Source: Sphingopyxis sp. (GTDB lineage: Bacteria; Pseudomonadota; Alphaproteobacteria; Sphingomonadales; Sphingomonadaceae). From it: a stretch of 64,000 nucleotides of DNA. Position 1 is the stretch's first letter. The number at the start of each line of letters is the position of its first letter. A model generated the notes under the pieces. That model had not been told where the DNA came from, searched no databases, and saw nothing but the letters and a program-made list of their open reading frames with translations. Of the stretch, positions 1 through 44,607 are shown in pieces. Location: contig JAEULK010000030.1 in assembly GCA_016793775.1 (NCBI GenBank), positions 1-64,000 on the forward strand, given 5' to 3'. Position numbers and translations under genes: made by a program.

Positions 1-1524
1 GTGCGGGTTGCGGATCGAGAAGCTGCCCGAGAGCGTCTTGTGCGTGTAGATGTTCGCCGGGATCGGCTCGATGCACGCGCTGGTGCCGCCGCAGATGATG
101 CTGATCGACGCGGTCGGCGCGATCGCCATCTTGCAGCTGAAACGCTCCATCACGCCCTGGTCGGCGGCGTCGGGGCACGGGCCGCGCTCGTTGGCGAGCA
201 GCATCGAGGCGGCGTCGACCTGCGCACGGATATGCTTGAAGACGCGCAGGTTCGAGGACTTGGCCATCGCGCCCTCGAAGGGCAGGCCGCGCGCCTGGAG
301 GAAGCTGTGGAAGCCCATGACGCCGAGGCCGACCGAGCGTTCGCGGCTCGCGCTGTACTTGGCGCGCGCCATTTCGGGCGGGGCGCGGTCCATATAGTCC
401 TGAAGGACGTTGTCGAGCATGCGCATGACATCCTCGATGAACATCTTGTCGCCGTTCCACTCGTCCCAGGTTTCGAGGTTGAGCGACGAGAGGCAGCAGA
501 CCGCGGTGCGATCGTTGCCGAGATGGTCGCGGCCGGTCGGCAGCGTGATTTCCGAGCAGAGATTCGAGGTGGTGACCTTGAGCCCCAGATCGCGGTGATG
601 CTTGGGCATCATGCGGTTCACCTGGTCGATGAAGATGATGTAGGGCTCGCCGGTCGCGAGGCGCGTCTCGACGAGCTTCTGGAACAGCCCGCGCGCGTCG
701 ACGGTGCCACGCACGCTGTTGTCCTTGGGTGAGCGCAGGTTGAATTCGGCGCCGTCGCGGACGGCCTCCATGAACTCGTCGGTGATGAGGACGCCGTGGT
801 GCAGGTTCAGCGCCTTGCGGTTGAAGTCGCCCGAGGGTTTGCGGACCTCGAGGAATTCCTCGATCTCGGGGTGCGAGACGTCGAGGTAGCAGGCGGCCGA
901 ACCGCGGCGCAGCGAGCCTTGGCTGATCGCGAGGGTCAGGCTGTCCATGACGCGGACGAAGGGGATGATGCCGCTGGTCTTGCCGTTGAGGCCGACGGGT
1001 TCGCCGATGCCGCGCACCGCGCCCCAATAGGTGCCGATGCCGCCGCCGCGGCTGGCCAGCCAGACATTCTCGTTCCAGGTGCCGACGATGCCCTCGAGGC
1101 TGTCGTCGACCGAGTTCAGGTAGCAGGAGATGGGGAGGCCGCGCCCGGTGCCGCCGTTCGAGAGGACGGGCGTCGCGGGCATGAACCACAGTTTCGAGAT
1201 ATAGTCATAGAGCCGCTGGGCGTGCGCCTGATCGTCGGCATAGGCGTCGGCGACGCGCGCGAAGAGGTCCTGATAGGATTCGCCGGGCAGCAGATAGCGA
1301 TCCTCGAGCGTTTCCTTGCCGAAGTCGGTCAGGAGCGCGTCGCGGCTGCGGTCGGTTTCGATCGCGAATCGACGCGCGTGGACCTTGGCCTCGCTGCTGT
1401 CGTTGAGCTTGGCCGCAGGGGCCGAATCGCCTTGCGATTCGGTGGCTGTCGGAGTCTCGTTCTTCGTCAATTCCATCGTCGCCACGTCGCTCGTCTCCAC
1501 CCGCTCGGTCTCTCGAAAATCCAT
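1..1524 (-). CDS. nrdA: Ribonucleoside-diphosphate reductase alpha subunit, class I (3' end cut by window edge)
   Basis: Large subunit of aerobic ribonucleotide reductase, which makes deoxyribonucleotides from ribonucleoside diphosphates with a radical-generating beta subunit not in this window. The first 508 residues are visible. Active-site landmarks are the redox cysteine in LPISCYLNS (Cys134), the N-x-C-x-E radical-site motif NLCSE (Asn321, Cys323, Glu325) and the second redox cysteine in AVCCLSSLN (343-344); GGGIGTYWG and the substrate-loop region GSLRRGSAACYLDVSHPE also fit. The ATG at 1524 follows a GGGGGCG stretch; an in-frame ATG 16 codons later is the alternative. Regulation by NrdR is indicated by two boxes upstream. 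The C-terminal shuttle cysteines lie beyond the window. Identification is secure; the exact start is less so. Confidence 0.95.
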   Translation of the reverse strand, partial: MDFRETERVETSDVATMELTKNETPTATESQGDSAPAAKLNDSSEAKVHARRFAIETDRSRDALLTDFGKETLEDRYLLPGESYQDLFARVADAYADDQAHAQRLYDYISKLWFMPATPVLSNGGTGRGLPISCYLNSVDDSLEGIVGTWNENVWLASRGGGIGTYWGAVRGIGEPVGLNGKTSGIIPFVRVMDSLTLAISQGSLRRGSAACYLDVSHPEIEEFLEVRKPSGDFNRKALNLHHGVLITDEFMEAVRDGAEFNLRSPKDNSVRGTVDARGLFQKLVETRLATGEPYIIFIDQVNRMMPKHHRDLGLKVTTSNLCSEITLPTGRDHLGNDRTAVCCLSSLNLETWDEWNGDKMFIEDVMRMLDNVLQDYMDRAPPEMARAKYSASRERSVGLGVMGFHSFLQARGLPFEGAMAKSSNLRVFKHIRAQVDAASMLLANERGPCPDAADQGVMERFSCKMAIAPTASISIICGGTSACIEPIPANIYTHKTLSGSFSIRNPH

Positions 1525-1582
1525 CTAATTCGCCCCCGATTCAACGCGCCTGTGGCGCGCTATGTTCCTGTCTTGTTCGACT

Positions 1583-1689
1583 CGGGGCGAAGTCCCCGTC
1601 TTAGCATTTTATCGACGTCCAGGGGCACATTTTTTGGGCGCAGGAGGCTCTTTCCTCCGCCCATATGGGATGGGCGGCGGAAATCCGCC
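1583..1689 (-). promoter_or_regulatory. Hairpin-rich 5' leader of nrdA
   Basis: The region between the NrdR boxes and nrdA holds several perfect stems: GGCGG/CCGCC (1676-1680 with 1685-1689), GCCCAT/ATGGGC (1659-1664 with 1670-1675), GGAGG/CCTCC (1643-1647 with 1654-1658) and CGGGG/CCCCG (1583-1587 with 1594-1598). GGGC at 1636-1639 can pair with GCCC at 1659-1662, which excludes the GCCCAT/ATGGGC hairpin, so two mutually exclusive folds exist. I do not recognise a known riboswitch class; the AdoCbl-riboswitch core is not seen. Function as an RNA leader is inference. Confidence 0.45.
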
Positions 1690-1704
1690 ACTTTCGGCCA
1701 GATA

Positions 1705-1746
1705 CAATTTATTGGGGTGCCCCCTCGGTCGACCCACCATCCATAG
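1705..1746 (-). promoter_or_regulatory. Tandem NrdR boxes upstream of nrdA
   Basis: Read on the minus strand, the core CTATGGATGG (1746-1737) and the core CAATAAATTG (1714-1705) both resemble the NrdR consensus CwATATwTwG-like palindrome with flanking ACA/TGT remnants. Their centres are 32 bp apart, the three-helical-turn spacing usual for paired NrdR boxes. NrdR is the ATP/dATP-sensing zinc-finger repressor of ribonucleotide reductase genes, so this is probably the nrdA promoter region. The match is by eye; the downstream box is the stronger one. Confidence 0.7.
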
Positions 1747-2009
1747 TGCCACGTCGGCGCGGAGACGCAAGACGGTAAATGACAGATTGACGACTCAACT
1801 CGTCGCTATTCCGATTCGTTTCGTCGCTCTTCGGGCCGGCTTCGCGGGGTGAAGTGGCGGCTTTCCGCCGCGTTCGCCGATCGGCGCGGCGCCGCGGCGC
1901 GGCACAAAAATTTTTCCGCCCGGCACAAGATGTGGTGGAGCCGCTTTTCAACCGCCGCCGCGCCCTCTAACCGGTGCTCACGAACAAGCGCCTTCGGGGA
2001 CAAAGACTT

Positions 2010-3716
2010 ATGCTGGTGGGGATCGATCTGGGCACGACGAACAGCGCGGTCGCCGTCTGGCGCGACGGCGCGCCGATGCTGATTCCCAACGCGCTCGGCG
2101 ACCTGATCACCCCCTCGGCGGTCAGCGTCGGCGACGACGGCGCGCTGCTCGTCGGGCTCGCGGCGCGCGAGCGGCAGGCGACGCATCCCGAGGCGACCGC
2201 GACGATCTTCAAGCGGCGGATGGGGACGATCGAGGAGGCGCGGCTCGGCAAGCGGCGCTATCGCCCCGAGGAATTGTCGGCGATGATACTCGGCGCGCTG
2301 AAGGCCGATGCCGAGGCGTTTCTGGGCGAGCCGGTGGCCGGCGCGATCATCACCGTGCCCGCCTATTTCAACGACCGCCAGCGCAAGGCGACGCGCCGCG
2401 CCGGCGAACTCGCGGGGCTGAAGGTCGAGCGGTTGATCAACGAGCCGACCGCGGCGGCGCTGGCCTATGGCATCCACGAACTGGAGGAGGAGCGGCCGTT
2501 CCTGGTGTTCGACCTGGGCGGCGGGACCTTCGACGTGTCGCTGGTCGAGATTTTCGACGGGGTGATCGAGGTGCGCGCCTCGGCGGGCGACAATCGGCTG
2601 GGCGGCGAGGATTTCAACGCCGCGATCGTCGCGCTGGCGCGCGACGCGCTGGGCGATGCGATCCGCCCGAAGGCGGGCGAGGATGCGCAGCTCGACGAAA
2701 TATTGCGCGCCGCCGCCGAGCGCACGCGCCGCGCGCTGAGCGAGGCCGACCGCGCGCCGTTCCAGATCGTGTGGAAGGGCGAGGCGCTGGCCTGCGACAT
2801 CGGCGGCGAGGCGTTCGAGGCGCGTGCACAGCCGCTGATCGACCGGCTGCGCGACCCGGTGCTGCGCGCGCTGCGCGACGGCAATGTGCGGGCGGAAACA
2901 TTGTCGGAGATCGTGATGGTCGGCGGCGCAACGCGCATGCCGCTGGTCCGCCGCGCGGTGACGCGGATGTTCTGGCGTTTCCCCAATGCGCAGATCAACC
3001 CCGACCATGCGATCGCGCTCGGCGCCGCGGTGCAGGCGGGGCTGAAGAGCCGCGACGCGGCGCTGAAGGAGATTCGCCTGACCGACGTCTGCCCTTTCAC
3101 TTTGGGGGTCGACACCGGGCACCGCGACGCGAGCGGCAAGATCACCACCGGGCTGTTCTCGCCGATCATCGAACGCAACACGGTGATCCCGGCAAGCCGC
3201 AGCGAGGTCTATTCGCCGATGGAAGCGCATCAGCAGGTGGTCAGCTTCGGCATCTATCAGGGCGAATCGCGCTTCGTCGCGCAGAATGTCAAACTGGGCG
3301 AGATCGACGTGCCGCTGCCGGCGAACCATGGCGGCCGCATCGGCATCGACGTGCGCTTCACCTATGATGTCAGCGGGCTGCTCGAGGTCGATATCGAGGT
3401 GCCGGGGACGGGAACCCGGCGCCAGCTGGTGATCCGCGACGAGGAGGACCGCGAGAGCGAGGCCGACTTCGCCAAGCGCCGCAAGGCGCTGGAGGCGCTG
3501 AAGATCCATCCGCGCGAGGAAGTGGCGAATGCCGCGACGCTGGCGCGCGCCAATCAGCTATTCGAGAACCGGCTGGGTTATGAGCGGCAGCTGGTCGGCG
3601 AGTGGATCGCGCAGTTCGAGGCGGTGCTGGCGCGGCAGGAAGCGCGCGAGATCGAGGCGGCGCGGACCGCGCTCGACAAGGCGGTCGACGAAATGGACGG
3701 CGAGCAGTTTCTGTGA
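2010..3716 (+). CDS. hscC: Hsp70-family chaperone HscC
   Basis: A 568-aa cytoplasmic Hsp70 homologue, shorter than DnaK (about 640 aa) and close to E. coli HscC in length. The nucleotide-binding domain shows GIDLGTTNS at the N terminus, NEPTAAALAYG near residue 145, DLGGGTFDVS near 165 and the IVMVGGATRMP loop near 300. The substrate-binding domain begins after DVCPFTLGVDT and the lid is short. The ATG at 2010 is preferred because the protein then begins MLVGIDLGTTNS as expected and GGGGAC lies about ten bases upstream. Its stop overlaps the start of a J-like membrane protein, the same hscC/J-protein pairing known from E. coli (DjlB/DjlC). The client is unknown. Confidence 0.88.
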   Translation: MLVGIDLGTTNSAVAVWRDGAPMLIPNALGDLITPSAVSVGDDGALLVGLAARERQATHPEATATIFKRRMGTIEEARLGKRRYRPEELSAMILGALKADAEAFLGEPVAGAIITVPAYFNDRQRKATRRAGELAGLKVERLINEPTAAALAYGIHELEEERPFLVFDLGGGTFDVSLVEIFDGVIEVRASAGDNRLGGEDFNAAIVALARDALGDAIRPKAGEDAQLDEILRAAAERTRRALSEADRAPFQIVWKGEALACDIGGEAFEARAQPLIDRLRDPVLRALRDGNVRAETLSEIVMVGGATRMPLVRRAVTRMFWRFPNAQINPDHAIALGAAVQAGLKSRDAALKEIRLTDVCPFTLGVDTGHRDASGKITTGLFSPIIERNTVIPASRSEVYSPMEAHQQVVSFGIYQGESRFVAQNVKLGEIDVPLPANHGGRIGIDVRFTYDVSGLLEVDIEVPGTGTRRQLVIRDEEDRESEADFAKRRKALEALKIHPREEVANAATLARANQLFENRLGYERQLVGEWIAQFEAVLARQEAREIEAARTALDKAVDEMDGEQFL

Positions 3717-12956: not shown

Positions 12957-13083
12957 CTGTGGCGCAGCCATGGGGAGGGGGACCGCTCGCACAGCGAGTG
13001 GTGGAGGGGCCCGCGACGTTGCGTTGTTGCCCCTCCGTCAGCGCTTCGCGCTGCCACCTCCCCGTCGCTTCGCGACAGGGAGG
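12957..13083. repeat. Palindromic REP-type element
   Basis: Nested inverted repeats (outer CCTCCCTGT/ACAGGGAGG, middle GGGGAGG/CCTCCCC, inner GGAGGGGC/GCCCCTCC) fill the convergent gap between the VOC and SDR genes. No coding potential is apparent. Confidence 0.65.
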
Positions 13084-13091
13084 ATTGGTGG

Positions 13092-13871
13092 TTACCGGAA
13101 CGTCGCCATCCCCGCACCGTCGATATTGAGCTTTTGCCCCGAGCAATAGGGGTTCGCATCGCTGACGAACCACAGCACCGCCGCCGCGACATCTTCGGGG
13201 AGCGAGACGCGGCCGAAGGGGAATTTGCTGTCGAGGTGGTGGATGTCGTCCTGTCCGGTGATCGCGCGCGCGAGCTTGTCGCCCATGTCGCTGACGGTCA
13301 GCGAGGGCGCGACGATGTTGACGCGGATACCGTTCGCCATCTCTTCCTTGGCGAGCGTCAGCGCGAGCGCCTCGCCCGCCGCCTTGCCCATATTATAGGG
13401 GGCGCCATTGGCGCTGTGGCTGAGCGTCGCGACGCTTGAGATGACGATGATGTCGCTGCGCTTGTGGGTGCGCAGCTGCGGCAGCGCGAGGCGGCTGACG
13501 CGGTGCGGGCCGAGCGCGTGGGTGGCGATCACGCGTTCGAGTTCGGCGGGATCGGTGTCGGCGACGGTCCGGCCGCGGCTGGCGATGCCGGCGTTGTTGA
13601 TCAGGATCGACAGCGGGCCGAGGTCGGCCTCGATGCCGGCGATCATCGCGGCGCACGCCTCCTCGTCGGTGACCGACGCGTGATAGGCTTTCGCCCTGCG
13701 CCCGAGCGCGTGAATCTCCGCGACGGTCGCGGCGGCGGCATCACCGTCGCGGGTGTAGTTGACCGCGATGTCGGCGCCCGCCCGCGCCAATGCCAGCGCG
13801 ATGCCGCGTCCGATGCCGCGCGAGCCGCCGGTGACGAGCGCAGTGCGCCCTCCCAAATTCATCTCAGCCAT
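13092..13871 (-). CDS. SDR-family NAD(P)-dependent oxidoreductase
   Basis: A 259-aa classical short-chain dehydrogenase/reductase. The Rossmann nucleotide-binding motif TGGSRGIG is near residue 15, NNAG near 90, and the catalytic Ser-Tyr-Lys is seen in ISSVATLSHS and YNMGK. It resembles FabG-like 3-oxoacyl reductases, but substrate cannot be inferred. The ATG at 13871 has GGGAGGG five bases upstream and overlaps the end of the preceding thioredoxin-like lipoprotein gene by eight bases, so the two are co-transcribed. Confidence 0.87.
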   Translation of the reverse strand: MAEMNLGGRTALVTGGSRGIGRGIALALARAGADIAVNYTRDGDAAAATVAEIHALGRRAKAYHASVTDEEACAAMIAGIEADLGPLSILINNAGIASRGRTVADTDPAELERVIATHALGPHRVSRLALPQLRTHKRSDIIVISSVATLSHSANGAPYNMGKAAGEALALTLAKEEMANGIRVNIVAPSLTVSDMGDKLARAITGQDDIHHLDSKFPFGRVSLPEDVAAAVLWFVSDANPYCSGQKLNIDGAGMATFR

Positions 13872-38717: not shown

Positions 38718-38897
38718 TCAGTGCAGCTTCGCAATCGCCAGGCCATCGGCCTTGGCGCGGACCTTCACCGATTCCTCGCTGCGCGTCAGCGCCTTGGCGA
38801 TCGCCTTCAGCGCCATGCCCTTCTTGGCGAGCGTGTGCAGCTTATCGATCTCGGCCGCTGTCCACGGCTGTTTGTGGCGTTCGAACTTGTCCTTCAT
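38718..38897 (-). CDS. 59-aa Myb/SANT-like helix-turn-helix protein
   Basis: A short basic protein beginning [20 protein letters not shown] and continuing [33 protein letters not shown]. The W-T-x-x-E-I-x-x-L start and the K-A-I-A-K-A-L-x-R-S-E-x-S-V-K helix pattern look like a SANT/Myb or GcrA-like helix-turn-helix, so DNA or protein binding is plausible. ATG overlaps the GreA-family stop (ATGA), and BaiN follows after six bases, so all three are co-translated. Confidence 0.75.
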
Positions 38898-39370
38898 GCC
38901 TGCGTCTCCGGATCGGTCGCGGCGGCGAGGATTTCTATCGCATCCTCGCTGCCCTGATAGTCGAGCGTCTCGCCGACTTCGGCGCCCATCATCGCGCGGG
39001 CGAGCGGCGCGGAAAAGGCGATGCTGCCTTGCGCCGGGTCGGCCTCGTCATGCCCGACGATCGTGAGGGTTCGTTCCGCGCCGTTCAGCGTGAAGGTCAC
39101 CCGGCTGCCGATGCCGACCACATCGGCGTCGGGCGCGGCCTGCACCTCGGCGGTCGACTGGCGCGTGTGGACATAGCGCTGGCGCTTGAGCAATTTCTTG
39201 CGCGCCTCCTCGTCGGCGGCGTTCGCAATCGCATCCGCGAGCCGCGCCGCCTCGTCGCCGAGCAGCCGCAATCCGCGCGGGGTGACCAGGTTCGGACCGT
39301 TGGGGATCGGCCATTCGAACGCGGGTTCCATATGCTCGTCGTCGCTTTCGCGGCGAAACGCTACGCTCAT
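38894..39370 (-). CDS. GreA/GreB-family transcription elongation factor
   Basis: A 158-aa protein with a helical N-terminal half ([43 protein letters not shown]) and a C-terminal FKBP-like half ([52 protein letters not shown]). Gre factors rescue backtracked RNA polymerase. The N-terminal coiled coil is short and the acidic tip is not obvious, so it could be a Gre-like regulator instead. ATG 39370 is chosen over a GTG two codons earlier because GAGAG lies nearby. Confidence 0.83.
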
Positions 39371-39452
39371 CGTCACTCTCTCGGATCAAGGGGGAATACC
39401 GTCTCTGGCCCAGGAAGGTGGCGACAAGATGGCGCGAAATTTCGACCCTCGC

Positions 39453-39478
39453 GTAACCCCGCGGCGCGCCCCCGCGAA
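39453..39478 (+). promoter_or_regulatory. Predicted SigF-type ECF promoter of the bufferin operon
   Basis: GTAACC, 16 bases, CGAA: exactly the spacing and sequence of promoters recognised by the Caulobacter ECF factor SigF. It ends 51 bases before bufA, leaving a short leader with AAAAGGGAGC as ribosome-binding site. Since the operon encodes a SigF-like factor and its NrsF anti-sigma, an autoregulatory loop is expected. Confidence 0.72.
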
Positions 39479-39529
39479 CAGCAGCACGATGCCATCCCCC
39501 GCATCGTCCATTTAAAAGGGAGCAACCCC

Positions 39530-39826
39530 ATGTCGAATAGCCTCAAACTCTCGCTGGCCGCCTCGGCCGTCCTCGCCATGGCCGCCGGCGCCATCGCCGT
39601 CCCCGCCGCGTCGGCCGCCGAAGGCAAGACCGAAAAATGCTATGGCATCGCACTGAAGGGCAAGAACGACTGCGCCGCGGGTCCGGGCACCAGCTGCGCC
39701 GGCACCTCGACGGTCAATTATCAGGGCAATGCCTGGAAACACGTCAAGCCCGGCACCTGCGTCAAGCTGGGCGGCACGCTGAGCGCGCATCAGGGCAATG
39801 CCAAGCCGGTCGCCAAGAAGGGCTGA
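39530..39826 (+). CDS. bufA: Bufferin precursor (DUF2282), copper-binding RiPP
   Basis: A 98-aa secreted precursor: signal peptide [20 protein letters not shown] plus AIAVPAASA, then a core with four cysteines (37, 48, 56, 77) in [24 protein letters not shown] and [10 protein letters not shown]. This is the DUF2282 family, shown in Caulobacter to be post-translationally modified at cysteines by a DUF692 enzyme and to bind copper, protecting cells. The two maturation genes follow directly. It heads an operon of six genes behind a SigF-type promoter. Confidence 0.88.
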
Positions 39827-39836
39827 TCGCAAAGCC

Positions 39837-40706
39837 ATGACACCTCCCCGCCCGCTCCGTGACTTGCCGCGATGCGCCGGCTTCGGGCTCAAGCCCGAAC
39901 ACCATGCCGACGTGCTGGCGGCGGCGGAGCGGTCGACCCTGCCCGCCTGGGCCGAAATACACCCCCAAAATTATTTCGGCGCAGGCGGGCCTCCGCATCG
40001 CTGGCTGGCCGCGATCGCGGCGCATCTGCCGCTGAGTTTCCACTCGGTCGGGCTGTCGCTCGGTTCGGCGGCCGGGGTCGATGAGGCGGAACTCGAAGCG
40101 CTCGCCGCGCTGTGCGACCGCTATCGCCCCGCGATGGTTTCCGACCATCTGAGCTGGAGCAACGGCGGCGACGAGAAATTTCCCGACCTCTTGCCCATCC
40201 CCTATAGCCATGCCGCGCTCGACCATTTCGTGGCGCAGGTGGTCCGGGTGCAGAACCGGCTGGGGCGCCCGATCCTGATCGAAAATCCGTCGCGCTATGT
40301 CGCTTTTGCCGGTGATGCCTGGTCCGAGGTCGATTTCCTCCACGAACTTTGCCGCCGCAGTGGCTGCGGGCTGATCCTCGACATCAACAATGTCGAGGTG
40401 TCGGCGCATAATCTCGGGCTCGATGCCGATGCCTGGCTTGCCGCCTTCGACCCCGCGCTGGTCGGCGAAATCCATGTCGCGGGCCATGCGGTCAAGGACG
40501 ACGGACTGGGCGGGACGATCGCGATCGACGACCATGGTTCGGCGGTGCGCGCCAGCTGCTGGGACCGGCTCGCCACCTTCCTGCGCCGCGCCGGGCCGAA
40601 ACCGGTGCTCGTCGAATGGGACAGCGATATTCCCGATTTCGCGACGCTGATGGCCGAGGTCGCGACCGCCGACGCGCTGCTGCAGGCCGAACCCGGCGAT
40701 GCTTGA
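39837..40706 (+). CDS. bufB: MNIO-family (DUF692) multinuclear iron oxidase for bufferin maturation
   Basis: A 289-aa TIM-barrel enzyme that modifies cysteines of the precursor peptide with a multi-iron centre. Metal-binding and fold motifs: GFGLKPEHHADVL, WAEIHPQNYF, SFHSVGLSLGS, VSDHLSWS, ILIENPSRYV, LILDINNVEVSAHN, VGEIHVAGHA and VLVEWDSDIP, which provide the expected His, Asp and Glu ligands. ATG 39837 starts ten bases after bufA; the stop overlaps bufC by eight bases. Confidence 0.9.
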   Translation: MTPPRPLRDLPRCAGFGLKPEHHADVLAAAERSTLPAWAEIHPQNYFGAGGPPHRWLAAIAAHLPLSFHSVGLSLGSAAGVDEAELEALAALCDRYRPAMVSDHLSWSNGGDEKFPDLLPIPYSHAALDHFVAQVVRVQNRLGRPILIENPSRYVAFAGDAWSEVDFLHELCRRSGCGLILDINNVEVSAHNLGLDADAWLAAFDPALVGEIHVAGHAVKDDGLGGTIAIDDHGSAVRASCWDRLATFLRRAGPKPVLVEWDSDIPDFATLMAEVATADALLQAEPGDA

Positions 40707-41412
40707 GCGGGATCAGGCGGCGATCGTCGCGACGCTCCTCGAAGGGCCGGCGCGCCTGCCGACCGATTTATTCGCCGGCGCATGGCGGCAGGTGCTGCGC
40801 GCGATGACGGTCCACGCCAACACCATTTCGCACGCGCGGCTGGTCGCGCTCGAAGACACCTTCCCGCGCACTCGCGCGTATCTGGGCAACGCCGAATTCA
40901 ACCGCCTGTCGCGCGATTTCCTCGACCGTGGCGGCGCCAGGGGCCGCGCCCATGCGCAGATCGGTGCGGGCTTCCCCGATTTCCTGGCACACGAAGCCGG
41001 CGTCATCGCGACCGACCTCGCGCGTATCGAATGGGCCTGGCTCGCCGCCTATCATGCTGCCGACGCGCCCGCACTGACGCTTGCCGATGTCGCGGGGCAG
41101 GGCGAGGCGAGCCTGCTCGCGCTGCCGGTGCGGCTACACCCTGCGGCGATGATGCTGATGCTGGCCAGCGACGCCGCGCCGATCCTCGATCCCGCGTTGC
41201 CCGCCGGGACCGCCGCGCTGCTCCTCACCCGGCCCGAGGCCGAGGTGCGACTGCTTCCGGCTACCCCCGCGACGCTCGCGCTGCTCGATGCCGCCCGAAA
41301 AATCATCCCCCTCGGTAACCTGATCGAACGCCTCGCCGAACAGCAGGACGGAGGCGGGGCTGCCGTCGTGCCGCTGATCGCGGCGGGCGCGTTCGAGAGG
41401 GTCCGACGATGA
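40699..41412 (+). CDS. bufC: DUF2063 partner protein of the MNIO enzyme
   Basis: A 237-aa protein of the DUF2063 family. The N-terminal helical DNA-binding-like domain (LERDQAAIVATLLEGPARLPTDLF to NAEFNRLSRDFLDRG) acts in known systems as recognition and docking partner that hands the leader and precursor peptide to the DUF692 enzyme. The C-terminal half (RLHPAAMMLMLASDAAPILD onward) is less conserved. Overlap with both neighbours (8 and 4 bases) supports a stoichiometric complex. Confidence 0.85.
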   Translation: MLERDQAAIVATLLEGPARLPTDLFAGAWRQVLRAMTVHANTISHARLVALEDTFPRTRAYLGNAEFNRLSRDFLDRGGARGRAHAQIGAGFPDFLAHEAGVIATDLARIEWAWLAAYHAADAPALTLADVAGQGEASLLALPVRLHPAAMMLMLASDAAPILDPALPAGTAALLLTRPEAEVRLLPATPATLALLDAARKIIPLGNLIERLAEQQDGGGAAVVPLIAAGAFERVRR

Positions 41413-41867
41413 CGAAGGCGATGCAATATTACGACCGCGCGGTGCAACTCGCCAGCGCGCGTCTTCCCGAAGGGCTGGTACTGCTGTTGCTGCGCGTCGC
41501 GCTGGCCGGCGTCTTCTGGCGCTCGGGCCGGACCAAGGTGGCCGAGGGCAGCTGGCTGCAAATCGACCCCGGCACCTACGAGCTGTTCAAGAGCGAATTT
41601 TCGGGCCTGCCGCTCGACCCGTCGATCGCCGTGCCGCTGACCACCTTCGCCGAACATTTCTTTCCGATGCTGCTCTTGCTAGGCTTGGCGACGCGCCTTT
41701 CGGCGGGCGCGTTGCTGGTGATGACGCTGGTGATCCAGATTTTCGTCTTTCCCGATGCCTGGTGGCCCGTGCACAGCCTGTGGGCGGCGATGGCGGCGGT
41801 GCTGATCGTGCGCGGCGGCGGCCTCTTTTCGCTCGACGCGCTGGCACTGAAATCGCGCCGCCGGTGA
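41409..41867 (+). CDS. DoxX-family membrane protein
   Basis: A 152-aa protein with four hydrophobic helices and the DoxX hallmark LLLLRVALAGVFWRSGRTKV near residue 25-45, then VPLTTFAEHFFPMLLLLGLATRLSAGALLVMTLVIQIFVFPDAWW. DoxX proteins are recurrent members of bufferin operons and may supply electrons or couple to respiratory quinone chemistry; the role here is inference. Start and stop both overlap adjacent genes (ATGA and GTGA). Confidence 0.87.
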   Translation: MTKAMQYYDRAVQLASARLPEGLVLLLLRVALAGVFWRSGRTKVAEGSWLQIDPGTYELFKSEFSGLPLDPSIAVPLTTFAEHFFPMLLLLGLATRLSAGALLVMTLVIQIFVFPDAWWPVHSLWAAMAAVLIVRGGGLFSLDALALKSRRR

Positions 41868-42385
41868 GTATCGACGAACCCTCGCTGGCACGGCTGATGG
41901 CGGCGGCGCAGCGCGGCGACCGCGCCGCGTACCGCGCGCTGCTGACCGATTGCCAGCGCTGGTTGTCGCGCTATTTCGCGCGCCGTATCGCGCCGCACCA
42001 GATCGACGACCTGGTGCAGGAAACATTGGTGTCGATGCACCGCAAGCTCGCGACCTGGGACAGCAGCCGCGCCTTCCTGCCCTGGCTCGCGGCGATCGCG
42101 CGCTATCGCTGGATCGACGCGCTGCGCCGCCGGCGCGACGCCGCCGAACTCCATGACGACGACGCCTTCGTCGATGCCGAGGACGAGGCGGTGCATGCGC
42201 GGCTCAGCCTCGATCGCATGCTGATGCACCTGCCCTCGGGGCAGGCGCAGGCGATCACTTTGGTCAAGATCGAAGGCGCCTCGATCGCGGAGGCCGCGCA
42301 AATTTGCGGCCAGAGCGAATCGCTGGTCAAGGTGAATATCCATCGCGGGCTGAAGAAGCTCGCGCTCCTGATTGAAAGTGAATGA
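41864..42385 (+). CDS. sigF: ECF sigma factor, SigF type
   Basis: A 173-aa sigma-70 family factor with regions 2 and 4 only. Region 2: LLTDCQRWLSRYFARRIAPHQIDDLVQETLVSMHRKLATWDSSRAFLPWLAAIARYRWIDALRRRR. Region 4: LMHLPSGQAQAITLVKIEGASIAEAAQICGQSESLVKVNIHRGLKKL. The DDLVQET start of region 2 and the pairing with an NrsF-type anti-sigma identify the SigF group that responds to copper and other metal or oxidative stress in Caulobacter. GTG at 41864 overlaps the DoxX stop. Confidence 0.88.
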   Translation: MSIDEPSLARLMAAAQRGDRAAYRALLTDCQRWLSRYFARRIAPHQIDDLVQETLVSMHRKLATWDSSRAFLPWLAAIARYRWIDALRRRRDAAELHDDDAFVDAEDEAVHARLSLDRMLMHLPSGQAQAITLVKIEGASIAEAAQICGQSESLVKVNIHRGLKKLALLIESE

Positions 42386-42386
42386 G

Positions 42387-43037
42387 ATGACGGACGCATC
42401 GATCGACGAACTGATCGAGGGCCTGACCGGCGACCTCCAGCCGTTGAAACCGCGCCGGATCGCGCGCGGCTCGCTGTGGGTCGCGGCGGGCTGGCTTGCG
42501 GGGGCGGCCGCCTTGCTTTGGGTCGCGGGCATGCGCCACGACCTTGCGGCGGGCATCATGATGCCGCCGCTGCCGATGCTCGCCTTCTGGACGATCGTCG
42601 CGCTCGGCGTCGCGGCGGCGTGGAGCGCGCTGCGCATGGGACTGCCCGGGGTCGGCCGCGATTACAGCGGCTGGTATTGGGCCGGGCTCGCCGCGCTCGC
42701 GCTGCCGCTCACCGCGCTCGTCATCGGGTTCGGCGACCATCGCGCCGCGATGGAGGCGGCACGGCCCGAGAACGGGCTGCGCTGCATGATCGAGGGCGCC
42801 ATGTCGGGGCTGGGCGTCGGCCTGGCCCTGTTCGCCTGGCTGAAGCGCGCCGCGCCGACCTCGCCCGCCCGCGCGGGCTGGGCGATCGGCATCGCCGCGG
42901 GCGCCGCGGGCGCGACGATCATCGCGCTCCATTGCGCGTCGAACGACATGATGCATATCGCGCTGTGGCACGGCCTCGCGGTTGCGCTGTCGGGCATCGC
43001 CGGACGCGTGCTGCTCGCGCCGCTGCTGCGCTGGTAG
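42387..43037 (+). CDS. nrsF: NrsF-type membrane anti-sigma factor (DUF1109)
   Basis: A 216-aa inner-membrane protein with six predicted helices and a cytoplasmic N-terminal segment (TDASIDELIEGLTGDLQPLKPRRIARG) that matches the DUF1109 start. It holds the SigF-like factor inactive until a signal reaches the membrane; two cysteines (NGLRCMIEG and IIALHCASND) lie near helix ends, where NrsF cysteines are needed for sensing. ATG 42387 is separated from the sigma stop by one base. Confidence 0.87.
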   Translation: MTDASIDELIEGLTGDLQPLKPRRIARGSLWVAAGWLAGAAALLWVAGMRHDLAAGIMMPPLPMLAFWTIVALGVAAAWSALRMGLPGVGRDYSGWYWAGLAALALPLTALVIGFGDHRAAMEAARPENGLRCMIEGAMSGLGVGLALFAWLKRAAPTSPARAGWAIGIAAGAAGATIIALHCASNDMMHIALWHGLAVALSGIAGRVLLAPLLRW

Positions 43038-43053
43038 CGTCTGGACAGCCAAT

Positions 43054-43085
43054 CCTTCGTGTGTTATCGAAATAACACACGAAGG
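43054..43085 (+). promoter_or_regulatory. Perfect 14-bp hairpin overlapping a ribosome-binding site
   Basis: CCTTCGTGTGTTAT, loop CGAA, ATAACACACGAAGG. The right arm covers most of GAAGGAG at 43081-43087, the ribosome-binding site for the GIN-domain gene at 43095. Folded RNA would hide the site; alternatively the DNA palindrome is an operator (GTGTTAT/ATAACAC). No T-run follows, so it is not a terminator. Confidence 0.6.
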
Positions 43086-43094
43086 AGATTTGCG

Positions 43095-43853
43095 ATGCGT
43101 AACTGGACGATGGCGATGCTGCCGCTGGCCCTGGCGATGACGGCGTCGGGTTGCAGCGGGTCGATCACCCGCGACGACAAGGACGGTGAAAAGACCACGC
43201 GCGTCGATGCCGGCCCGCCGACGACCAAGAATTTCGCGCTGACCGGTTTCACCGGGGTCGAGGTCGCGGGCCCCGACGATGTCACCATCCGCCAGGGCGA
43301 GACCTTCGCGATCAGCGCCAAGGGGCCGCAGGCCGAGATCGACGAACTCGACATCAAGCTCGACGGATCGACGCTGTCGATCGGGCGCAAGCGCGAGGGC
43401 TTCAGCTTCCGCGGCGGCGACCATGACGGAGTCGAGATCGCGATCACCATGCCCAAGCTCGATACGGTTCGGCTGACGGGGTCGGGCTCGGTCGATGCCG
43501 ACAGCGTCGACGGCGACGCGGTCAAGGCGTCGCTGACCGGATCGGGCGACCTCAAGATCGCCAGGATGACCGGCAAGACCGCCGACCTGACCGTGTCGGG
43601 CTCGGGCGACCTCGCCATCGCCGCCGGCACGATCGCCTCGGGCGAAGTCGGCATCACCGGGTCGGGCGATATCGATGCGGGCGGGCTGGCCGCGCAGACG
43701 CTCGACATCTCGATCACCGGATCGGGCAATGTCGAGGCGCAGGCGACCGGCAAGGCCGATATCCGCATCCTGGGGTCGGGCGACGTCGATCTGATCGGCG
43801 GCGGCAGCTGTTCGACCAAGACGATGGGATCGGGCACCGCGACCTGCAAATAA
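43095..43853 (+). CDS. GIN-domain (DUF2807) putative lipoprotein
   Basis: A 252-aa exported protein with a lipobox-like TASGC (Cys20), an acidic linker, and a DUF2807 beta-helix-like domain (about residues 45-245) built from repeated strands such as LTGSGSVDADSV, LTGSGDLKIARM, VSGSGDLAIAAG and ITGSGDIDAGG, giving a striking Gly-Ser-Gly periodicity. Such domains are thought to act as extracellular or periplasmic adhesion-like scaffolds. Function unknown. Translation may be gated by the hairpin just upstream. A second, related gene follows 43 bases later. Confidence 0.83.
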   Translation: MRNWTMAMLPLALAMTASGCSGSITRDDKDGEKTTRVDAGPPTTKNFALTGFTGVEVAGPDDVTIRQGETFAISAKGPQAEIDELDIKLDGSTLSIGRKREGFSFRGGDHDGVEIAITMPKLDTVRLTGSGSVDADSVDGDAVKASLTGSGDLKIARMTGKTADLTVSGSGDLAIAAGTIASGEVGITGSGDIDAGGLAAQTLDISITGSGNVEAQATGKADIRILGSGDVDLIGGGSCSTKTMGSGTATCK

Positions 43854-43896: not shown

Positions 43897-44607
43897 ATGG
43901 CTTCATTGATCCGATCCGCCGCGCTCGCGGCCGCCGCCTTCCTGACCGTTCCTTCCGCATCGGCGGCCGAGAAACGTTTCGGCCTCACCAGTTTCGAGGC
44001 GATCGAGGTGACCGCCGACGTCGCGGTCGAGGTGGTGGCGCGCGCGCCGGTCAGCGCGATCGCGACCGGTCCGTCCGACGCGCTCGACCGGCTGACCGTC
44101 GAGGCGCGCGACGGCAAGCTGGTGATCGGCCAGAAAATCTATGCCGGCGACGGGGACCGGCGCCAGCCGCTCGGCCGGGTGACCTTGCGCATCAACGCCG
44201 CCAATCTGCAGTCGGCGACCGTCGTCGGCGCGGGATCGCTGCAGATCGATGGGCTGAAAGGCACCCGCGTCGCGATCGGCCTGCGCGGCCCAGGGCGGAT
44301 CACTGTCGGCACCGTCACCACCGACCGGCTCGTCGTCGCGATGGTCGGCAATGGCACGCTGGCGCTCGGCGGCACCGCGAAGACGGCGCAGATGACGCTG
44401 TCGGGCGCGGGGCAGGTCGATGCGAGCGCGCTCGCGGTCGGCGAACTGATCAGCGACAGCGAAGGCACCGGCGACCATATTTTCCAGGCGGTGAAGACCG
44501 CCGCGATCACGACGCGCGGGCTGGGCAAGACCGTGGTGCTCGGCAAACCCGTGTGCACCGTGCGCAACGTCGGCAGCGGTACGGTGCAATGCGGCACGAA
44601 GAAATAG
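43897..44607 (+). CDS. GIN-domain (DUF2807) secreted protein
   Basis: A 236-aa relative of the preceding gene, with signal peptide LIRSAALAAAAFLTVPSASA and a shorter repeated-strand domain (VVGAGSLQIDGL, LRGPGRITVGTV, VGNGTLALGG, LSGAGQVDASAL). Two cysteines near the end (KPVCTVRNVGSG and VQCGTKK) may form a disulfide. Probably the second gene of the same transcript. Confidence 0.8.
   Translation: MASLIRSAALAAAAFLTVPSASAAEKRFGLTSFEAIEVTADVAVEVVARAPVSAIATGPSDALDRLTVEARDGKLVIGQKIYAGDGDRRQPLGRVTLRINAANLQSATVVGAGSLQIDGLKGTRVAIGLRGPGRITVGTVTTDRLVVAMVGNGTLALGGTAKTAQMTLSGAGQVDASALAVGELISDSEGTGDHIFQAVKTAAITTRGLGKTVVLGKPVCTVRNVGSGTVQCGTKK

Follow-up and report, generated by a model that had tools for sequence, protein, structure and literature searches.

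The DNA analysed here, called the window, is a stretch of 64,000 nucleotides from Sphingopyxis sp. (Sphingomonadaceae; GCA_016793775.1, contig JAEULK010000030.1, positions 1 to 64,000). Between positions 39453 and 43037 it carries six genes, all on the + strand, which make up a Buf1 bufferin operon together with genes for an extracytoplasmic function (ECF) sigma factor, SigF, and its anti-sigma factor, NrsF. What appears to be new beyond this known gene set is a putative second SigF promoter, termed P2, which lies within the coding sequence of the third gene, bufC, and seems to have been kept at the DNA level in relatives. The features are listed below, with scores from Pfam profiles searched at their curated cut-offs.

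39453..39478, + strand: P1, SigF-type promoter element GTAACC-N16-CGAA, exact match, 77 bp before the bufA ATG
39530..39826, + strand: bufA, Buf1 bufferin precursor of 98 amino acids with four Cys (PF10048 DUF2282, 78.5 bits, cut-off 22.4)
39837..40706, + strand: bufB, MNIO (DUF692) maturase, 289 amino acids (PF05114 MbnB_TglH_ChrH, 302.8 bits, cut-off 25)
40699..41412, + strand: bufC, DUF2063 partner protein of the MNIO, 237 amino acids (PF09836, 45.9 bits, cut-off 27.2)
41315..41340, + strand: P2, second SigF-type element GTAACC-N16-CGAA, exact match inside the bufC 3' end, 94 bp before the doxX ATG
41409..41867, + strand: doxX, DoxX-family membrane protein, 152 amino acids (PF07681, 59.5 bits, cut-off 23.6)
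41864..42385, + strand: sigF, ECF sigma factor, 173 amino acids, with a GTG start overlapping the doxX stop (PF04542 Sigma70_r2, PF08281 Sigma70_r4_2)
42387..43037, + strand: nrsF, membrane anti-sigma factor, 216 amino acids, with Cys133 and Cys183 (PF06532, 128.2 bits, cut-off 26.8)

A sequence-only reading of this DNA had proposed a six-gene bufferin operon here, and the profile searches bear it out: the genes share one strand and the limits given, and each scores above the Pfam cut-off of its expected family, including the 98-amino-acid protein searched against DUF2282 and its two neighbours searched against DUF692 and DUF2063. The start given for the operon, 39453, is the first base of P1. 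Tight packing, also proposed, is seen in the overlaps of bufB-bufC (8 bp), bufC-doxX (4 bp) and doxX-sigF (4 bp), but the overlaps do not extend to bufA-bufB and sigF-nrsF, which are separated by 10 bp and 1 bp, respectively. No terminator-like sites were found in 39380-43120.

The gene order, bufA-bufB(MNIO)-bufC(DUF2063), is that of Buf1 bufferins. Against the stricter NCBIfam equivalog models, BufB passes MNIO_BufB (324.5 bits, cut-off 310), while the operon proteins match BufA2, HvfC, HvfX and AntiSigF_NrsF only below the cut-offs. DoxX reaches 45.8 bits against HvfX (cut-off 80), and NrsF 51.8 bits against the Caulobacter-like AntiSigF_NrsF (cut-off 300), so that NrsF, being above the Pfam cut-off, is a member of the Pfam family outside the narrow NCBIfam model. 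In a PDB comparison BufB matched 3bww (E 3.2e-33); BufC and BufA had no match up to E 1. The closest named BufB is that of Sphingopyxis sp. KK2 (85% identical), and the genome is Sphingopyxis-like. All 77 aligned BufA stretches retain the four Cys; the N-terminus of BufA is hydrophobic and followed by ASA-A, which looks like a signal peptide by eye only. Cys133 and Cys183 of NrsF are present in 109 of 110 and 110 of 110 aligned NrsF sequences, respectively. Judged by position and neighbourhood, unaligned, they are probably the counterparts of Caulobacter Cys131 and Cys181 (PMC3511200). The position of sigF next to nrsF is conserved in relatives.

The core Buf1 genes encode a precursor, an MNIO, a DUF2063 protein and DoxX, and sigma/NrsF genes are reported from Buf1 clusters and not from Buf2 clusters (PMC12452194). 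The gene set is a further member of this already described kind, a Buf1 cluster with sigma/NrsF genes. Since it is known both from Buf1 clusters and from the Caulobacter SigF regulon, the operon as first described is ordinary. The sequence-only reading had also called bufferins newly recognised, with few members known; this holds for experimentally studied members, but thousands of Buf1 and Buf2 precursors have been collected (Antoine et al. 2025, PMC12452194).

The consensus GTAACC-N16-CGAA was defined in Caulobacter, where it was shown to drive the bufA operon as well as sigF (PMC3511200). P2 matches it as exactly as P1 does and reads into doxX-sigF-nrsF. When spacers of 15 to 17 nucleotides are allowed, the whole window holds three matches, the third having an N17 spacer and lying at 13069-13095 on the - strand; 100 shuffles of the window gave a mean of 0.08 matches and at most 2. 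The SigF/NrsF-type control predicted earlier for the Buf1 operon was upheld, as a prediction, by the domain content, the conserved Cys of BufA and NrsF and the promoter element before bufA. From these and the comparisons below, we consider it highly probable that the Buf1 operon is controlled by an ECF16-type SigF with NrsF through two SigF-type promoters, of which P2 lies inside bufC.

To place P2 among relatives, we used 118 nrsF loci, namely 58 of the 66 listed from the genus and 60 of the 110 listed from the family, a non-random selection, annotated by tblastn with the six window proteins. The test set consists of 53 loci, the window included, in which bufC is followed, in the same direction, by doxX and sigF. 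Five loci without an nrsF match to the window query (L134, L137, L139, L141 and L158) were left unoriented. A held-out set of 40 loci was fetched afterwards, among them 34 from the family list, one from the genus list and four that had been skipped or listed in another form before, several ending at contig edges, and a further 40 loci were fetched as a class-level sample, 17 of which have a bufC match. Five named Sphingopyxis loci carry both elements in all five cases; they overlap with the 53 and hence were not counted.

Upstream of bufA, an element of the P1 type (GTAAC[CT]-N16-CGAA) was detected within 350 bp in 50 of the 52 same-layout loci with a bufA match. The two misses are L169, which has a GTAACG variant, and L174, where the first bufA match is too close to the locus end for the test. 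Of the 53 test loci, 51 have the same pattern in the 3' part of bufC, 50 of them at one codon column and phase (37 in the genus of the window and 13 in eight other genera). In the held-out set, the sole co-directional locus, from another genus, carries P2 in the same phase (1/1), and none of the 11 loci with bufC on the opposite strand has the element in bufC. The control loci, in which bufC is not followed by sigF on the same strand, also lack it (0/47, with 1150 bp scanned after bufB), whether they are named loci (0/15), divergent family loci (0/13) or Buf2-type loci (0/19, L193 having been excluded as the same place as L110). Within the test loci themselves, neither the reverse strand (0/53) nor the body of bufB (0/53) holds the element.

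The element is also found where bufC is damaged or gone. L076 has lost bufA, bufB and most of bufC to decay but still has the element with doxX-sigF-nrsF; L110 keeps just a bufC-like tail, which holds the element 93 bp before doxX; and in L175, the element stands 90 bp before doxX in apparently non-coding DNA. Among 48 loci without doxX upstream, 34 have the same consensus within 500 bp before sigF. In genus g38, whose layout differs, all three loci fetched (L182, L282 and L285) have GTAACC-N16-CGAA within the 3' end of doxX, 57-88 bp upstream of the sigF match, which suggests a repeated need for a promoter before sigF. The base composition around the three classes of element showed no signal beyond the core motif.

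Considering that P2 sits in a gene, its presence could reflect the codons or the protein rather than a promoter. When synonymous codons were redrawn 500 times from each locus's own genes, the element appeared in a mean of 0.956 and a maximum of 5 of the 53 loci, compared with 51 observed; this null and the control loci rule out a chance origin of the motif. Alternatively, the motif might reflect no more than protein conservation at the DUF2063 C-terminus, in a segment (Gly-Asn-Leu ... Ala-Glu) whose likeness to a promoter is accidental, which would leave the operon with one promoter only. The segment is indeed coding in the tested loci, its Glu is fixed in 52 of 52, and Gly at the first position is common in other BufC proteins (16 of 22 rough controls). 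However, the codon holding the first GT of P2 is always NGT (GGT 39, CGT 5, TGT 4 and AGT 2), so that the residue varies among Gly, Arg, Cys and Ser, the NGT set, while the G and the T never change; GGT accounts for 722 of the 5193 Gly codons in these loci (13.9%). In a ranking of third-base excess over 228 columns, the NGT column comes first, with T in 98% against an expected 13%, and the C that precedes GAA ranks fourth, although the residue encoded there is any of nine amino acids with a codon nearly always ending in C.

The tree points the same way. On a FastTree phylogeny of BufB, SigF and NrsF with 52 tips (L191 was excluded), the NGT codon underwent six changes at its first base and none at its second or third, the median number of third-position changes in bufC being 14 across 227 columns. 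The -35 and -10 letters fall in four columns, which had 0, 1, 1 and 2 third-base changes, the lowest counts bar one invariant Trp. The Asn of the segment is present in 51 of 52 test rows and in just one of 22 control rows, which is apparently in a wrong reading frame; other BufC proteins have Ala or Glu at this position in rough alignments. This residue comparison used a crude rule that recovered 22 of 47 control BufC proteins, with at least four rows (L037, L039, L161 and L195) that look wrong or incomplete; the region test that gave 0/47 in the controls is independent of it. A protein segment would also not be expected to outlive the decay or loss of bufC, as the element does in L076 and L110. 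Protein-level conservation was rejected as the cause of the motif on the codon, tree and residue comparisons, and we regard it as very improbable. Taken together, the comparisons indicate that P2 is conserved as DNA, overriding the protein sequence. An element in coding sequence under DNA-level constraint, one mark of an intragenic promoter, is present here, and P2 is a candidate for such a promoter.

Several observations weigh against a SigF promoter within bufC, or narrow its reach. Exact P2 is missing from two of the 53 test loci, L077, which has GTAACC-N17-CGAA in a different reading frame, and L078, in which AGAA replaces CGAA, and the match in L191 falls at a different codon of bufC. At class level outside the family, no element was found within bufC in the 17 loci with a bufC match; 15 of these are divergent and two (L254 and L259) co-directional, and the co-directional pair lacks it as well. 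P2 within bufC thus appears, as far as seen, to be a feature of this family, Sphingomonadaceae. The pattern was first noticed in the very 53 loci on which the codon null and the tree rest, and the independent co-directional evidence comes from a single locus. The bare N15-17 pattern is not enriched genome-wide (22 matches, compared with 19 for a reversed control pattern), so that pattern counts were rejected as evidence and lone matches elsewhere were left uninterpreted. Finally, under chromium or cadmium, sigF of Caulobacter shows no strong autoregulation (PMC3511200).

In the regulation that we propose, P1 would drive bufABC-doxX-sigF-nrsF and P2, from within bufC, doxX-sigF-nrsF alone. NrsF restrains SigF in Caulobacter through two Cys (PMC3511200), and by analogy metal stress would inactivate NrsF via its cysteines, whereupon the freed SigF would fire both P1 and P2. 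The MNIO and its DUF2063 partner would then form thiooxazoles from the two central Cys of BufA, and the peptide, once exported, would chelate copper. In Caulobacter, the SigF regulon is induced by copper, and growth in copper is poor when sigF is mutated (PMC8224329). The least certain step is the role of P2, which may set the supply of sigma factor, anti-sigma factor and DoxX apart from the RiPP (ribosomally synthesised and post-translationally modified peptide) output. P2 could also provide the basal level of SigF from which the loop starts, because the Caulobacter sigF promoter is partly and its bufA promoter wholly SigF-dependent; the analogy favours basal supply as at least one role of P2. 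The sequence-only reading had placed the sigma and anti-sigma genes in the same transcript, so that the peptide and its sensor would rise together. Read-through from P1 is possible, there being no terminator-like site, but doxX-sigF-nrsF very probably has its own SigF-type promoter, and so sensor and RiPP need not rise together.

It is conceivable that P2 is read by another sigma factor or regulator, which would give a constitutive supply of sigF-nrsF with no SigF feedback. In a sigF mutant of Caulobacter, the sigF promoter does stay active, and its activity requires the same -37 to +37 region (PMC3511200). On the other hand, P2 and P1 share an identical core and N16 spacing within one operon, and SigF overexpression in Caulobacter raised the activity of this promoter type (PMC3511200). 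Both inputs may act jointly, and we consider control by another factor in place of SigF unlikely.

As for the origin of P2, the simplest reading is that the promoter of the regulators came to lie within bufC when two units joined and was then kept, because the same consensus stands before bufA (50/52) and before sigF (34/48). That the divergent layout came first is plausible but not proven, the divergent layout being usual outside the family. P2 could then be just a leftover of the ancestral sigF promoter, active and of no benefit. The arrangement of those 15 of 17 class-level loci, with bufABC-doxX divergent from sigF as in Caulobacter, does make a regulator promoter ancestral. However, an unused relic in a fast-changing gene would not remain without third-base changes over 52 tips, and the element in doxX of g38 (3/3) again suggests a repeated need, so that a mere leftover seems quite improbable to us, if slightly less so than an accident of protein conservation.

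Among the closest known systems is SigF-NrsF/Buf1 of Caulobacter vibrioides (CC3252-CC3257; PMC3511200, PMC8224329), which has the same six gene families, promoter consensus and two NrsF Cys. There, the targets of SigF are its own promoter region, the Buf1 operon and another cluster, CC2907-CC2905 (PMC3511200), and sigF-nrsF forms a unit separate from CC3254-CC3257 with its own promoter in front, whereas in the window the regulators come last in one co-directional operon and their promoter lies inside bufC. The Buf1 clusters of PMC12452194 have in common with the window the four-Cys DUF2282 precursor, the MNIO, the DUF2063 protein and DoxX; promoters are not discussed in the accessible portions of that paper. 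In the captophorins, or 5-thiooxazole metallophores (PMC12668002, preprint), an MNIO with a DUF2063 partner installs 5-thiooxazoles on Cys, and DUF2282 precursors are one of three groups; BufA of the window is a candidate for this modification. RpoE7-EcfR7 of Sinorhizobium meliloti, in group ECF16 (PMC6180224), resembles the window in its DUF692/DUF2063 target operon and similar GTAAC...CGAA promoters, but its targets are divergent from the sigma gene, with two intergenic promoters. In Caulobacter cabp-sigV (PMC13171946), much as proposed for P2, the promoter of an ECF sigma gene is intragenic and lies within the 3' end of the preceding gene, so that the principle is not new; sigma factor, motif and genes differ, and the accessible portions of the paper hold no comparative evidence of the promoter shaping coding sequence. 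We found no report of an internal SigF-type promoter in bufferin clusters in the open-licence literature, which is not proof of absence.

Besides the operon, a GreA/GreB C-terminal domain protein (Pfam) is encoded at 38894-39376 on the - strand, divergent from bufA and with its start 77 bp from P1. Two look-alike neighbours follow 3' of the operon at 43059-43853 and 43897-44607, the first a DUF2807 head-GIN protein by Pfam and the second assigned by eye only.

The genome also carries a second MNIO/DUF2063 cluster (L001, C96:33966-37748, at 587-3076 of the locus) with two tandem Buf2-like precursors, one with 6 Cys (99 amino acids) and one with 8 Cys (101 amino acids). Of 19 Buf2-type loci in the genus, 11 have a 6-Cys precursor, and all of these carry GTAAC-N15 elements just upstream (nine exact GTAACC-N15-CGAA, one GTAACA and one GTAACT with CGGA), always N15 and never N16. 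The other eight, with only 8-Cys or longer precursors, showed no such element in a simple open reading frame scan, L197 being incomplete. Three loci (L203, L205 and L210, in genomes G259, G269 and G256) have repeat-type precursors of 157-188 amino acids with 12-15 Cys before the MNIO, with repeats like SCKGASGCKGDAKTDA. An NrsF match is absent in these three genomes and in G249, which has an 8-Cys precursor. A conserved TGTGA(T/C)C-N2-GATCATG, with GTCGTGTGA upstream, precedes the Buf2 precursors of the 8-Cys and repeat types (e.g. at about 1005-1040 of L001); it is perhaps a Crp/FNR-type site, although this is a guess. Conversely, 12 genomes of the genus (G203, G206, G221, G222, G224, G225, G239, G250, G257, G266, G267 and G268) have an NrsF gene and no MNIO match, and SigF must therefore have other targets there.

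P2 alters how the regulation of these clusters is read, given that maps of gene order would treat the copper-peptide genes and the sigma/anti-sigma pair as one unit. We lean, by a small measure, towards the wider view that P2 has dictated part of BufC (x-Asn-Leu ... -x-Glu, where x is NGT-coded) in ten or more genera and uncouples the supply of sigma and anti-sigma factor from the peptide operon, a need that would be strong enough for a like element to occur in doxX of another genus. The system would then have two gains, with P1 setting the output and P2 the sensor. In these relatives, P2 would be an unusually clean case of a promoter prevailing over the protein code, in which the codon is fixed as NGT and the amino acid drifts. 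Since P2 could be removed silently (GGT to GGC, AAC to AAT), the role of sensor feedback in copper buffering would be directly testable.

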